NCBI GenBank assembly: GCA_003661965.1
Contig: QMXD01000004.1
Span: 1-32,657 of the forward strand
Length of the DNA stretch: 32,657 nucleotides
Origin: Candidatus Hecatellales archaeon
GTDB lineage: Archaea; Thermoproteota; Bathyarchaeia; Hecatellales; Hecatellaceae
Direction: 5' to 3'
Position numbers and translations under genes: made by a program. The notes below the pieces were generated by a model, which ran no database searches, was not told where the DNA came from, and saw only the letters and a program-made list of their open reading frames with translations. Below, in pieces: positions 4,863 to 23,708 of this stretch (within the stretch, counting starts at the first letter, position 1; every line of letters starts with the position of its first letter).

Positions 4863-5533
4863 TTGGAGAGTGTGGTTACAGGCTTTAAGGTTTTAGATGA
4901 AAAGCTAAGCGGATTTTTTGGACGTGGAAAAAACATACTTGTTTTTGGTCCCCCAATGTCAGGTAAAAAGTTTTTTCAAAAACCTTTGTTTATAGGGGGC
5001 TTTTAAACGGTGAGGCATGTATATTCACATGCACAAACAACACTGCTGAAGGTGAAAGTAGACAGTTTACCGAGTTTGGATATAGGGTTGGAGAGTTTGA
5101 GGAGGAAGGGTTTCTTGTCTATGTTGATTTTTACTCAAAAACTGTTGGTTTAAAGTGTGAGGAGAAAAAACATGTTAGATATGTTTCAAGTATGATGGAT
5201 TTAACAGGCTATAATGTTGCTGTTAGAGATTTAACAGCCAAGTTTTGGAGGGAAGAAAAACCTGTTAGACTTGTTTTTGACTCTGTTACACCGTTACTTC
5301 TCTATAATGAGCCTAGAACCGTTATGCGTTTTTTACATATTCTTTTTGGTAGGCTTAAAAGTCTTAACATTATAAGCCTCTTCCTTATCGAGGAGGGTAT
5401 GCATAGCCGAGAAACCATGGTAACACTTACAAGCATGATTGATGGCATTATAGAAACAAAAAACGAAAACGGAAAAAACTGGGTTAGGTTAAAATCAGAA
5501 GCTTTAAGTGGCGACTGGATACCTTTAACCTAG
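4863..5533 (+). pseudogene. KaiC/RadA-like RecA-fold ATPase, frameshifted after Walker A
   Basis: TTG at 4863: LESVVTGFKVLDEKLSGFFGRGKNILVFGPPMSGKKFF then a stop; homology resumes one frame over (KTFVYRGLLNGEACIFTCTNN...LVFDSVTPLLL) through the ORF ending 5533. Frame change lies at the T6 run 4971-4976. Confidence 0.7.
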
Positions 5534-6489
5534 CCACCTTTTTTTAGGTTTAAGTATAAACATGCAATAGTTGTCACCTTTAGCTATACACTTAACCTCT
5601 TTACCAACAAAATCTTTCCCTAGAATCATGCTTAGGTTTCCAGCAAGAGCCCCACGTGTAATATGACATGAAGGCTCATTCTGTTTCCCAAAATGTTCTA
5701 AAATGCTTTCAGCCTCAAAATTGTTTAAAAGTATCACTTTAACCTCCTCCTCAGAAAAACTTTCAACATACCCTAAAAACGTCCAAGATACCAGCATCCA
5801 GCAAACACATAGTTAACAATCTCCTCTTTAGGTATACCAAGAGATAGATACCTTTTTACAGCATCCCTTCCACACCTATAACCAAAATTGTAAAGAAAAG
5901 TCTTTATTACAGGACCTAAACCTCTAACAACCTCTATTAGGCTTGCAGGCCAATATCTGCTAGACATAAGCACACATCTTTCACCAAAACGTATAATTTT
6001 TCCATCCTTGTCGACAATGGGAGGTTCAGCCGTGATTTTTTCTAGAAGCTTTTTGTAGAAGTTTACTAGCTCATCCTTATCCTTTAAAACATCCAAAAAA
6101 GCCACCTCCAACCTATGAACCCAAAATTTTTTGATTTTTTCAACCGCCTTTTTCATTTCTAGGAGGATTAAACCCAAGGTTGCTTTTGAGTCTGACATAG
6201 CAACAAGAAGAGCTTTTTCTCCAGCACCTGTTGTAATTATTTTTGCTTGGGTTCCCTCAACAATAACTCTTTCAGTTATACCTTTTTTTAGCTCTGAGAA
6301 GGCTGTTTCAGCAGCCCCAGTCATTGTGGCTGTCATAGCTGCAAAGGTTTCAGCATCAACATCTTCAGGCATCATACTGGCTATAAGTAAACCGTCTCTT
6401 GAAACTATAGCTGAGGCGTAAACACCTGAACTACGGTTTAAACCTGATAAAGCCTCTTTTAAAGCCTCTTTTAAGGGTGTTTCATCCAA
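5525..6489 (-). pseudogene. Roadblock/LC7 domain + V4R domain protein, split by a frameshift
   Basis: ORF 5773-6489 has Roadblock (ASAIVSRDGLLIASMMPEDVDAETFAAMTATM) and N-terminal V4R (FGYRCGRDAVKRYLSLGIPKEEIVNYVFAGCWYLG). ORF 5525-5797 carries the V4R remainder (ESILEHFGKQNEPSCHITRGALAGNLSMILGKDFVGKEVKCIAKGDNYCMF). Adding one base at 5775-5779 joins them as ...LGRFLGYVESF... Confidence 0.75.
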
Positions 6490-7766: not shown

Positions 7767-8488
7767 CTAAACAGAAATTATTATTCCTCTTCTAGGCTGA
7801 ATTATGAAGGGGAAAACACCCATACTATGGTTTACACCCCTCATTTTTCTGATGTAAAGCTCTCTCCTAAAACCAGTTTCAACCATTTGAAGTCTAAGAA
7901 CAATAATACCTGAAGCCAAAAACTCTTCAACACCATAACGGCTAAGCTTTTTTGTTCCTGTTGGAATTTCTGAGGTGCCTATGGTTGTTATGTTAAGCTC
8001 TTCTAGGGCTTGAAAAAGTCTTCTAAGATAGTTTCTAATATACATTTGGGCGTCAAGACTTGTTAAAGGCTCATCAGACCTAGCAACTAGGGGGGCTATA
8101 GGGTCTATAGCAAGCCTTTTAGCCTCAACCTCATCAATATAACCCTTTAACCCTTTAGATTGTCAACGATTTGAACAGAATCAACCTTTTTAATATCTGA
8201 AAAATATGGGGAAAGCTCAACCATAAGCAACCTATTTTCATCGATAAGCTTTTCAAGGTCCCAGCCTAAGGTTAAAGCATCCTCTACAACTCTTTCAGGT
8301 TTTTCGTCTATGGTTACATAGATACCGTTGTCACCATAGCTAACCCCATAATAAAGGTATTGGAGGGCGAAGGTTGTTTTACCTGTTCCAGTTTCACCTG
8401 CAACAAGGTAAACTCTTCCTTTTGGGAAGCCTCCCTCAATAAAGTTGTCCAACCCTTCGATTCCAGTTTTAACTTTAAGGTTTTCCAA
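7767..8488 (-). pseudogene. KaiC-like ATPase, frameshifted
   Basis: N-terminal ORF 8147-8488 (VYLVAGETGTGKTTFALQYLYYG) and C-terminal ORF 7767-8045 are one protein. Intervening reading GYIDEVEAKRLAIDPIAPLVARSDEPLTSLDAQMYIRNYLRR is open in the second frame; the break is at the 8-bp tandem repeat AACCCTTTAACCCTTT (8141-8156). Confidence 0.75.
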
Positions 8489-12638: not shown

Positions 12639-13178
12639 TTGGCTGGGTTGGAAAAAAAACCTTTAAAAGGACTGCTTACAAACGGAAAGGTTTACGTTAA
12701 AAAAGATGAGTCTGGTGTAGAGGTTTTGCTTGAAAAGGGTTATGGTGAAAAGCTTAATGGGGAAGTGGAGTTTTCACCATGGGAAACACTGTATCTGGTT
12801 GGTGAGGGTTGGCTTGAGGTTTTTGATGAAAAAACAGGTGAAAAGCTTGGTTTTGAAAAGCTTGTTGAAATTTTTTCACGTGAGGATAGGTCTGTCTGGT
12901 CAAAATATCTGGTTTATAGGGATTTACGTTCTAGGGGTTATGTGGTGAAAAAGGGTTTTGGTCAAGGTGTAGATTTTAGGGTTTATGAACGTGGAGCCTA
13001 CGGTAAAGAGGCTGCAAAAATTCTTGTTTACAGCGTTTTTGAGGGTGAACCTATACCAATAAAAAACCTTATCAGCCTTCTTGACAGCGCAAGAAACATG
13101 AAAAAAGATGTTGTTATAGGGGTTATAGAAAGAAGAGGTGAAGTTGTCTATTATGCTCTTTCAACCTTCAACCTTTAA
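12639..13178 (+). CDS. endA: tRNA-splicing endonuclease
   Basis: YLVYRDLRSRGYVVKKGFGQGVDFRVYERG with conserved catalytic-region motifs. Confidence 0.92.
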   Translation: MAGLEKKPLKGLLTNGKVYVKKDESGVEVLLEKGYGEKLNGEVEFSPWETLYLVGEGWLEVFDEKTGEKLGFEKLVEIFSREDRSVWSKYLVYRDLRSRGYVVKKGFGQGVDFRVYERGAYGKEAAKILVYSVFEGEPIPIKNLISLLDSARNMKKDVVIGVIERRGEVVYYALSTFNL

Positions 13179-13989: not shown

Positions 13990-15327
13990 TCACCCTTTTT
14001 TCAGCCTAGAAACAAAAAAATCTTTAAGCTTACCGATTAAAACCTCCTCCTCAAACTTTTTTTCCATATCCCTAACCTTAACCTTCCCCTCAGCAAGCTC
14101 ACGCTCCCCAACTATCAAAACATAGGGGAAACCAAGCCTATCAGCATACTCCAACTGTCTTGTAAGTGAACGGTTTCTTAGGTCAAAGTCTGCTGGTATC
14201 CCCCAAGACCTAAGCCTTTCAACAAGCTCAAGAGTTTTAACATGAACCCTCCTATTTGCTGAGGCTACAAAAACCCCCATTAAAGGTTTAGGTTTCTCCA
14301 AAACCCCGTTTTTTTCTAGGGTAAGCATAAGTCTTTCAATACCTCCAGCAACACCTGTGGCTGGAAGGTCTCTACCAAAAATTTTGCATAGTTTATCGTA
14401 ACGTCCACCAGCAACTATAGCCCCAACCTCCTTTGCAACCCTATCATAAACCTCAAAAACAACACCATCATAATAGCCTATCCCACGAACAATACTAGCA
14501 TCAAAAAAACATTCCTCAATCTTTTTGAATGCTTTTAGGCTTTCCATAAGCTTTTCAAGCTCCCCTAAACCAAGCAAAAACTTCTCGTTTTTTATTTGGT
14601 AGTTTAGGATAGTCGACAAAACCTTTTCATATTCACCGCTAACAGAAACAAAACCTAAAATTTTTTCTGTTTGTTGACTGTTTAACCCAAGCTTATCAAG
14701 CTCACCAATAAAATCTTCTTTTGAAATCTTCCTATACTTGTCGATTATTCTTAGAACAGCCTCAACCTTCTCACCTACAATGTTTAGGCTGTTTAGAAAA
14801 CCTTCAACAAGCTTTCTACTACTTATCCTAACCTCAAAACTTTTTAAACCAACATTTTTAAGAACATCAACAGTTAAAGAAATTATTTCAGCATCAGCAT
14901 CAGCCTCAACACTTCCAAAAATTTCCGCATCCCACTGGTAAAAACACCTATACCTACCAAACTGAGGCTCATCATACCTCCACATATTCGAAATTGCAGC
15001 CAGCTTAACTGGAAGGGTTAGGTCAGGTCTGCTTGCAACCATCCTTGCCAAACCAACTGTTAAATCAAACCTTAAACCAAGCTTTCTTCCAGCCTTATCC
15101 TCAAACCAGTAAATTTCATCTTTTATTGATGGACCACATTTAGCCTCTAAGGTTTCAAGGTTTTCGATTGGGGAGGGTTCAACAAGCCTAAAACCGTATC
15201 TTTCAAGAATCTCCATAATTTTTTTGTTGATTTGTAGACGTTGAGCCATTTCTTCAACTCCAATATCCCTCATTCCCCTAGGCAAAGGAAACCCTTTTAA
15301 AGCCAAAAACCATCCACCAGCTAACAA
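13990..15327 (-). CDS. hisS: Histidyl-tRNA synthetase
   Basis: FPLPRGMRDIGVEE, GIGYYDGVVFEVYD, GGRYDKL, GVAGGIERL. Confidence 0.96.
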   Translation of the reverse strand: MLAGGWFLALKGFPLPRGMRDIGVEEMAQRLQINKKIMEILERYGFRLVEPSPIENLETLEAKCGPSIKDEIYWFEDKAGRKLGLRFDLTVGLARMVASRPDLTLPVKLAAISNMWRYDEPQFGRYRCFYQWDAEIFGSVEADADAEIISLTVDVLKNVGLKSFEVRISSRKLVEGFLNSLNIVGEKVEAVLRIIDKYRKISKEDFIGELDKLGLNSQQTEKILGFVSVSGEYEKVLSTILNYQIKNEKFLLGLGELEKLMESLKAFKKIEECFFDASIVRGIGYYDGVVFEVYDRVAKEVGAIVAGGRYDKLCKIFGRDLPATGVAGGIERLMLTLEKNGVLEKPKPLMGVFVASANRRVHVKTLELVERLRSWGIPADFDLRNRSLTRQLEYADRLGFPYVLIVGERELAEGKVKVRDMEKKFEEEVLIGKLKDFFVSRLKKG

Positions 15328-17350: not shown

Positions 17351-18480
17351 TTAAAGCCTACTAATCCTTTCAACCATTTTTTCTTTACCCTTAAAATATG
17401 CACGTACAGGTTCAAGCATTTTTGTTAGGGTTTCTACAACACTGTTTTTTAGGTCTAGGGGGTGAATTTTCCCTTCAACATAGCTTTTTTCAAGTTCCTC
17501 GTAGCTTGAAAACTCTACAGAGCCACCGTATTTTGCTTCCCTTTCAATAAGAAAGCTTTTTTCCCTAGCAAAAACCACATATTTTACTATTTCTAGTATA
17601 GGGTTTCCCTCAGCCTGTCTTGGTGGACAATATGCTCCAAGAATTTTGCTTTTTATATCCTCTGGAGAATCATGGATAAATATACATCCTTTAGGCTTAC
17701 TTTTAGACATCTTAGTTCCAATCTGAAGGCTAAGCCTCTCATTCTCATCATAGTGGGCTTCAGTTTTCTCGGAAAAACCAGCTAAACCAAGCAAAAGATG
17801 GCTGTGGAGACAAACAGGCTTCTTAACCGAAAGCTTTTCCGCTGTATCCCTAGCCAACATATGGGCTTTACGTTGATCCATCCCTGCACATGCACAGTCA
17901 ACCTCCAACATAAAAATGTCCGCCACCTGCATACATGGGTAGAATAGGTAGGCTGTTTCAACATCTGTTGGTTTTAGTTCTCTTCCCATGATTGGGAGGC
18001 ATCGGATAACCCTTGGAAGGTTTGATTTTTTAGCAACTCTTACGACGGTTTCCCAGTATCCATCCTTTTTTACAAGGTCTGAAGCCCAAACATATTTGAC
18101 TTTGTCTTTTGTTAAGCCTATAGAGGAGAAGGCTTCAATAAAGTATTCTCCACAATCTCTTATGGTTTGCATATCTCCCCCAAACTTGTTGTTTATCCAT
18201 GCATGCCAATCAGCTAAAAGAATTGTAAAGTCAAATCCAGCTTCAACCATATCTAAAATCTTGTAGCCACATACAAGCCCAGTTCCTATATGCATTATTC
18301 TGGGTGGTGAACCCTTCTTATTCCAGCCGAAATTTAAGGGTTCAACCACTATCCAGAAGGCTCAAAACCCCAGTAGGCTTTAGGTTTAGCCTCACACTCT
18401 AAAAGGTTTTTTAGCTCCTCATAGGTTATAATCTCCTCCAAGTTTCTTTTAACAAGCTCCAACTTTTCCTCCAAATCCAA
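17351..18480 (-). CDS. tyrS: Tyrosyl-tRNA synthetase, two exons: 18480..18351 and 18297..17351 (intron boundaries +/-1 nt)
   Basis: 5' part LDLEEKLELVKRNLEEIITYEELKNLLECEAKPKAYWGFEPSG is outside the ORF-track entry but is typical TyrRS; 3' part MHIGTGLVCGYKILDMVEAGFDFTILLADWHAW...IGTKMSKSKPKG. Confidence 0.85.
18298..18350 (-). other. Candidate 53-nt BHB-spliced intron in tyrS mRNA
   Basis: Central helix CUGG:CCAG (18356-18353 / 18303-18300), 3-nt bulges AUA (18352-18350) and AAU (18299-18297), inner stem GUGG(U)UGAACCCUU:AAGGGUUCACCAC; symmetric cleavage restores the frame. Confidence 0.75.
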
Positions 18481-22574: not shown

Positions 22575-23708
22575 GTGAACCTATTGTCATCCGACGAGGA
22601 AATGGTTGTAACACCATGGAAGGTTTCAGGAAAAATAGACTATGAAAAACTTATAAGACAGTTTGGAACCCAACCCCTAACAAAAGAAATCCTAGAAAAA
22701 CTCAAAAAACATGCTGGAAGCCTCCACTACCTAATAAGAAGAGGATTCTTCTTCTGCCATAGAGACTTTGACCTCATACTAAACCTTTACGAGCAAGGTA
22801 AAAAATTCGTTTTATACACTGGGAGAGGGCCTTCAGGTCCTGTTCATCTTGGTCATTTGCTTCCGTGGATTTTTACTAAGTATCTTCAGGATGCTTTTGA
22901 TGTTAAGCTTTATTTTCAGATGACTGACGATGAAAAGTTTCTTCTCCACCATGATTTTACGGTTGAAAGGTCTGTAGGCTACACCTACGATAATGCTTTG
23001 GATGTTATAGCTATAGGGTTTGAGAAGGAAAAGACAAGGATAATTTCCGACATAAAAAACATTAGGGCTTTATACAACATCGCGGTTAAGGTGGCAAAAC
23101 ATGTAAACTTTTCAGTTGTTAGAGCTGTTTTTGGTTTTGAGGAAAGCACAAACATAGGGCTAATATTTTTCCCAGCAATTCAGGCGGCACCATGCTTTCT
23201 AGAGTCAGTTTTAACTGGTGAAAATGTTCCAGCCCTAATTCCAGCAGCCATAGACCAAGACCCATACTGGAGGGTTACAAGGGATGTTGCACCTAAGCTT
23301 GGATTTTATAAGCCTGCCCAAATCCATAGCAAGTTTTTGGCTGGGCTTGGTAAAGGTGGGAAAATGTCTGCCTCCCAGCCTGAAACATGTATTTTTACCA
23401 CGGATTCTCTTGAGGCTGCTGAAAAAAAGGTTTTTAATGCTTTTACAGGTGGGCAGCCAACAGCCCAAGAACAAAGAAGGTTTGGTGGAAACCCTGAGGT
23501 TTGCACAGTTTACCAGTATATGCTTTATCTTTTTGAGGAGGATGATGGGAAGGTTAGGGAGCTTTGGGAAAACTGTAGGTCTGGAAGGATAATTTGTGGG
23601 GAGTGTAAAAGTATTCTTGCTGAAAGAGTAAAAAAGTTTCTTTTGGAGCATCAAAAAAGGAGAGAAAAAGCTAAAGATGTTGTTGAAGAATATTTTTTGA
23701 AGGATTAA
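22575..23708 (+). CDS. trpS: Tryptophanyl-tRNA synthetase
   Basis: VTPWKVSGKIDY, GRGPSGPVHLGHLLPW, GGKMSASQPETCIF. Confidence 0.96.
   Translation: MNLLSSDEEMVVTPWKVSGKIDYEKLIRQFGTQPLTKEILEKLKKHAGSLHYLIRRGFFFCHRDFDLILNLYEQGKKFVLYTGRGPSGPVHLGHLLPWIFTKYLQDAFDVKLYFQMTDDEKFLLHHDFTVERSVGYTYDNALDVIAIGFEKEKTRIISDIKNIRALYNIAVKVAKHVNFSVVRAVFGFEESTNIGLIFFPAIQAAPCFLESVLTGENVPALIPAAIDQDPYWRVTRDVAPKLGFYKPAQIHSKFLAGLGKGGKMSASQPETCIFTTDSLEAAEKKVFNAFTGGQPTAQEQRRFGGNPEVCTVYQYMLYLFEEDDGKVRELWENCRSGRIICGECKSILAERVKKFLLEHQKRREKAKDVVEEYFLKD

Follow-up and report, generated by a model that had tools for sequence, protein, structure and literature searches.

A probable bulge-helix-bulge intron in the tyrosyl-tRNA synthetase gene of Bathyarchaeia

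The window analysed here, the whole 32,657-nucleotide (nt) stretch of contig QMXD01000004.1 from a Candidatus Hecatellales archaeon, carries a tyrosyl-tRNA synthetase (TyrRS) gene, tyrS, whose reading frame is broken beside the HIGH-like active-site motif. Judging from the sequence and its relatives, this break very probably marks an archaeal bulge-helix-bulge (BHB) intron in the tyrS mRNA; the kind of intron is known, and tyrS is new as its host. A candidate intron had been placed at 18291-18360 by an original prediction made from the window alone, which is now supported by the exact frame break, conservation in 33 genomes, covariation and a cbf5 intron in the same genome. The parts of the gene and of the structure at the break are as follows.

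18351-18480, minus strand: tyrS exon 1, TTG start at 18480, MDLEEKLELVKRN...AYWGFEPSG plus the first base of the split codon
18298-18350, minus strand: putative 53-nt BHB intron, AGTGGTTGAACCC...GGGTTCACCACCCAGAA, predicted cut after nt 2 of each bulge
17351-18297, minus strand: tyrS exon 2, opening with bases 2 and 3 of the split codon, then MHIGTG... to the stop
18353-18356, minus strand: 5' strand CUGG of the central 4-base-pair (bp) helix, in the Ser-Gly codons of exon 1
18350-18352, minus strand: 5' bulge AUA, predicted cut after AU
18300-18303, minus strand: 3' strand CCAG of the central helix, in the intron
18297-18299, minus strand: 3' bulge AAU, predicted cut after AA

Direct reading of the minus strand places the start of exon 1 at TTG 18480, with GGAGG upstream, from which it runs as DLEEKLELVKRN...AKPKAYWGFEPSG into TAG; the frame is broken where GGA is followed by this stop, and the catalytic part resumes at 18297. 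The N-terminus therefore lies where the original prediction had put it, upstream in another frame and ending in AYWGFEPSG and TAG in place of MHIGTG. Removal of 53 nt (18350-18298), with both 3-nt bulges cut after nt 2, restores the frame as proposed and gives a complete TyrRS of 358 residues (GFEPSGLMHIGTG), the open reading frame (ORF) ending at 17351. This spliced protein aligns end to end with an archaeal TyrRS of solved structure (2cya, residues 1-351, E 1.8e-105), a check that the prediction had itself proposed, and scores 445.9 bits against the NCBIfam tyrosine--tRNA ligase model NF006330, compared with 386.0 for the unspliced ORF. Residues 1-43, encoded by exon 1, are conserved in relatives. 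A second intact tyrS, which would have counted against the prediction, was not found in the genome assembly, where the other match is a tryptophanyl-tRNA synthetase at 22575-23708.

The predicted structure at the break, comprising a CUGG:CCAG central helix, the bulges AUA and AAU, an inner stem of 13 bp interrupted by one bulged U and an outer helix with a single mismatch, was recovered by direct reading. The inner stem consists of 5 bp, the bulged U and 8 bp, and the outer helix (GCCUU/AAUGC) is short, with a C.U mismatch. The fold has an energy of -28.9 kcal/mol (z = -3.9), which none of 200 shuffles equalled. A BHB-like motif by itself is nevertheless little proof in this AT-rich DNA, and a significance test based on the motif only is uninformative for the window, where loose criteria return 291 such motifs on the plus strand against about 230 in random sequence. 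As the loose pattern is common by chance, comparison with relatives had to decide; the BHB falls precisely where the frame is broken and returns in 32 further genomes, and this gives the proof that the motif alone cannot. A group I or group II intron was rejected, the inserts measuring 21-53 nt with no catalytic RNA core, and an Rfam search of the window matched only a tRNA.

Using a sequence search, fetched regions and a covariance model, we surveyed 260 genomes of the class Bathyarchaeia and found an insert at exactly the same tyrS nucleotide in 33 of them (14 genera, 7 families). These include NJEB01000075.1 (Hecatellales ex4484_218, same genus; G001 in our sample), JAOZNA010000061.1 (G209), LIHK01000055.1 (BA2; G051), CP070749.1 (G067) and CP070826.1 (G066). 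The covariance-model match in the window spans 18284-18366. When 400 genomes of the phylum were sampled, there were nine matches, every one of them within this class. Insert lengths were 21, 22, 23, 24, 25, 27, 29, 30, 32, 34, 35, 37 and 53 nt, with 53 nt in the window, 32 nt in both CP070749.1 and CP070826.1 and 34 nt in LIHK01000055.1. An in-frame stop lies inside the insert in 31 of the 33 genomes and the frame is shifted in the other two, hence no insert can be read through, which removes the objection that relatives might translate the segment in frame. Canonical cutting, by comparison, yields Ser-Gly-(Leu/Met)-Met-His and an intact TyrRS in every case. One genome (G051) also carries an orphan second tyrS N-terminal fragment (locus L150, G051:C4:17222-17270) which keeps a short BHB-like insert with no catalytic domain after it, and is probably a decaying partial copy.

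Covariation was measured over a set of 26 distinct sequences. Pairing in the central and inner helices reaches 96%, whereas sliding the partner strand lowers it to 22-46%, and 51 doubly changed (compensated) cells were observed compared with 17.9 in shuffles. All four central pairs form in 27 of the 33 genomes and three in the remaining six. The second central-helix pair alternates between U-A and C-G together with the Ser codon, which is TCT or TCC. Furthermore, the two codons before the site are TC(T/C)GGA in 33/33 intron-bearing genes but in only 3/52 intronless relatives, which use many different Ser-Gly codon pairs (Fisher p = 2e-20, an overstated value given that related genomes are not independent). 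This fixation suggests that the exon half of the splice structure is held by selection at synonymous sites.

Cutting both bulges at the same position, after either nt 1 or nt 2, restores the frame as had been predicted, and the split codon points to the second of these. A cut after nt 2 gives Leu or Met in 33/33 genomes, where intronless relatives have Leu (34), Met (10), Phe (7) or Pro (1), whereas a cut after nt 1 would give Ile or Val in 13 genomes.

The same genome holds a second interrupted protein-coding gene. Its cbf5 (L218, G000:C53:5182-6161) is broken at the catalytic TLDP motif, as in many relatives (loci L220-L233). In this genome the insert measures 26 nt and has a CCCU:GGGG central helix, an inner stem of 8 bp and the bulges UGA and AAA; cutting after nt 2 restores GAT, the Asp of TLDP. 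Among 18 genomes examined for cbf5, 12 were resolved by the nt-2 rule, four fell outside the motif used by our script and two (G074 and G034) were uninterrupted. Since BHB splicing of cbf5 is experimentally established in crenarchaea (PMC2738675), the nt-2 rule mends not only tyrS but also a gene for which it is known to hold. The tyrS insert is not itself an orthologous cbf5 intron, its host gene being tyrS and the cbf5 intron being separate. According to a 2009 survey, the cbf5 intron was gained by the common ancestor of Desulfurococcales and Sulfolobales (PMC2738675); its presence in Bathyarchaeia implies that it is older or was gained again.

The host genome encodes two EndA paralogs and the ligase RtcB, as expected for an archaeal BHB intron. 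One paralog lies in the window:

12639-13178, plus strand: EndA paralog in which the catalytic His is missing, probably the structural (beta) partner in a splicing endonuclease of (alpha-beta)2 type

This protein reads GKEAAKIL where Methanocaldococcus jannaschii has DKEHSVYL, with Ala in place of His, and matches beta-subunit models weakly, which suggests that the enzyme is probably (alpha-beta)2, a type linked to relaxed substrate choice (PMC2738675). The other paralog, on contig C1 (G000:C1:40941-41192; L138:1231-1785), retains the catalytic His in the context GPGIDHAPYL, aligns best with 3p1z_B and 2cv8_A, two archaeal tRNA-splicing endonuclease chains of known structure, and is probably the catalytic subunit. 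The prediction of an endA in the window was therefore correct as to the gene, but not as to a catalytic enzyme, which appears to be encoded on the other contig. EndA paralog number does not explain which Bathyarchaeia carry the intron, since intron-plus and intron-minus genomes in the tested set mostly have two each. ARAGORN predicted introns in tRNA-Ser(GGA), tRNA-Lys(TTT, 45 nt) and tRNA-Gly(CCC) of the same genome (L211, L213 and L214), and no tRNA-Tyr was found among 28 tRNA matches. An ARAGORN call of tRNA-Ile(AAT) at 14220-14314 (minus strand) of the window lies inside hisS, has no Rfam support and is probably false.

In the mechanism we propose, folding of the transcript would bring the Ser-Gly codons of exon 1 into pairing with the intron's end. 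Both 3-nt bulges would be cut by the (alpha-beta)2 EndA, in each case after nt 2, and ligation by RtcB would restore the codon that lies between Ser-Gly and the Met-His of the HIGH-like motif. The intron keeps its position in a portion of the Bathyarchaeia and has probably been lost several times.

Four observations weigh against such an intron. The central helix has only 3 bp and a G.A mismatch in six f2 genomes. The outer helix is poorly conserved, with 80% of cells paired and one pair failing in 16 of the 26 sequences. The minimum-energy fold of the isolated strand adds two U-A pairs and partly closes the 3' bulge. Finally, the distribution is patchy: a TyrRS tree built from 86 sequences requires at least ten gains or losses, of which well-supported branches make seven unavoidable.

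The last point also bears on the history of the intron, as a mobile BHB intron gained repeatedly at a favoured site would be compatible with splicing. The many state changes on the tree fit such repeated gain, as do the differing stem sequences between families. We consider it unlikely, however, as the insertion nucleotide is identical, the first inner G-C pair is invariant and the bulges are very similar in all families, inserts of 21-53 nt are too small for a homing gene, and lineage-specific loss has been argued for cbf5 (PMC2738675). The identical site and shared motif favour one gain with several precise losses, as argued for cbf5, and several losses of the tyrS intron in Bathyarchaeia are probable.

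Readings without splicing fare much worse. Translational bypassing would have the ribosome stall at GGA before the stop, hop the structured segment and resume downstream. In phage T4 gene 60, GGA is followed by UAG and a gap of roughly 50 nt with a hairpin, and bypassing was considered because of this resemblance, the take-off GGA lying directly before TAG in the window and a strong hairpin in the gap. A GGA codon also stands at the landing position in 17 of the 33 genomes. The other 16, the window included, have AGA or AGT there, hence peptidyl-tRNA-Gly could not re-pair, and the landing-codon change tracks the needs of the central helix (U-A or C-G) rather than those of landing. Unlike gene 60, the tyrS inserts show no conserved landing codon, a gap length free to vary from 21 to 53 nt and BHB covariation; both 3-nt bulges keep their place and the BHB is the conserved feature. 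We regard bypassing as very improbable.

Slightly less credible still is a start at GTG 18349, giving an N-terminally different TyrRS with VVEPLNFGWNKKGSPPR before MHIG. The mechanical ORF 17351-18349 exists, but the added segment shows no conservation of sequence, length or frame, and with this start the protein would lose the TyrRS N-terminus, whose conserved sequence lies upstream in the other frame. An error of sequencing or assembly, or decay of tyrS into a pseudogene, has next to no credibility, despite other broken frames on the contig that resemble simple indels (5192, 5773 and 8147), as the disruption recurs at this site in 33 genomes, among them BA2 (LIHK01000055.1) and two Bathyarchaeota records whose titles call them chromosomes (CP070749.1 and CP070826.1), TyrRS is essential and without a second copy, both exons are conserved and the insert shows compensatory changes.

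The other interrupted genes in the window, named by eye, are a V4R-like protein and two KaiC/RadA-like ATPases, at 5773-5800 (minus strand), about 5000-5192 (plus strand) and about 8147 (minus strand). They were considered as further introns and rejected, as they resemble simple indels, with a homopolymer run at 5773, more such runs around position 5000 that precede the ORF at 5192, and, near 8147, a stretch of 8 nt duplicated in tandem (AAAGGGTT); they look like assembly errors or real decay, not BHB introns.

A second protein-coding gene, that of an essential synthetase whose intron is conserved through much of a class, would take splicing of pre-mRNA by the tRNA endonuclease beyond a single odd gene. 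Standard gene-calling programs will annotate tyrS wrongly in such genomes, and cbf5 too on the same reasoning, and the tyrS intron offers a gain/loss system for studying the persistence of introns in essential genes. More tentatively, Bathyarchaeia may hold a standing set of ancient EndA-spliced mRNA introns in RNA and translation genes (at least tyrS and cbf5) at active-site codons, in which case synthetase output would depend on, and could be tuned by, tRNA splicing; we think this possible, but not yet likely.

The rarity of archaeal mRNA introns of this kind, with cbf5 as the classic case, had been noted in the original prediction, and cbf5 is indeed the only coding example found in the open-access literature; a 2020 paper gives it as the only further archaeal mRNA BHB intron reported (PMC7714728), others being unproven predictions cited in PMC2738675. 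No earlier report of a tyrS BHB intron was found in that open-access literature, so priority is not certain. The tyrS intron shares with canonical archaeal tRNA introns the h-B-H-B-h' geometry, 3-nt bulges and 4-bp central helix, but lies in a protein-coding gene and not beside an anticodon. In Haloferax volcanii, EndA cuts an mRNA at a BHB in the 5' untranslated leader of HVO_1309 (PMC7714728), which is alike in EndA cutting of mRNA at BHB sites, whereas the interrupted tyrS coding sequence also needs rejoining. The closest counterpart is the cbf5 pre-mRNA intron of Desulfurococcales and Sulfolobales, whose splicing has been shown by experiment (PMC2738675). Both have a BHB, a tiny size (16-44 nt in cbf5, 21-53 nt in tyrS), a conserved position at an active-site codon, a hetero-oligomeric EndA and patchy, lineage-specific absence; they differ in gene and lineage, in the mostly canonical BHB of tyrS, and in that splicing of tyrS is deduced from comparative evidence.
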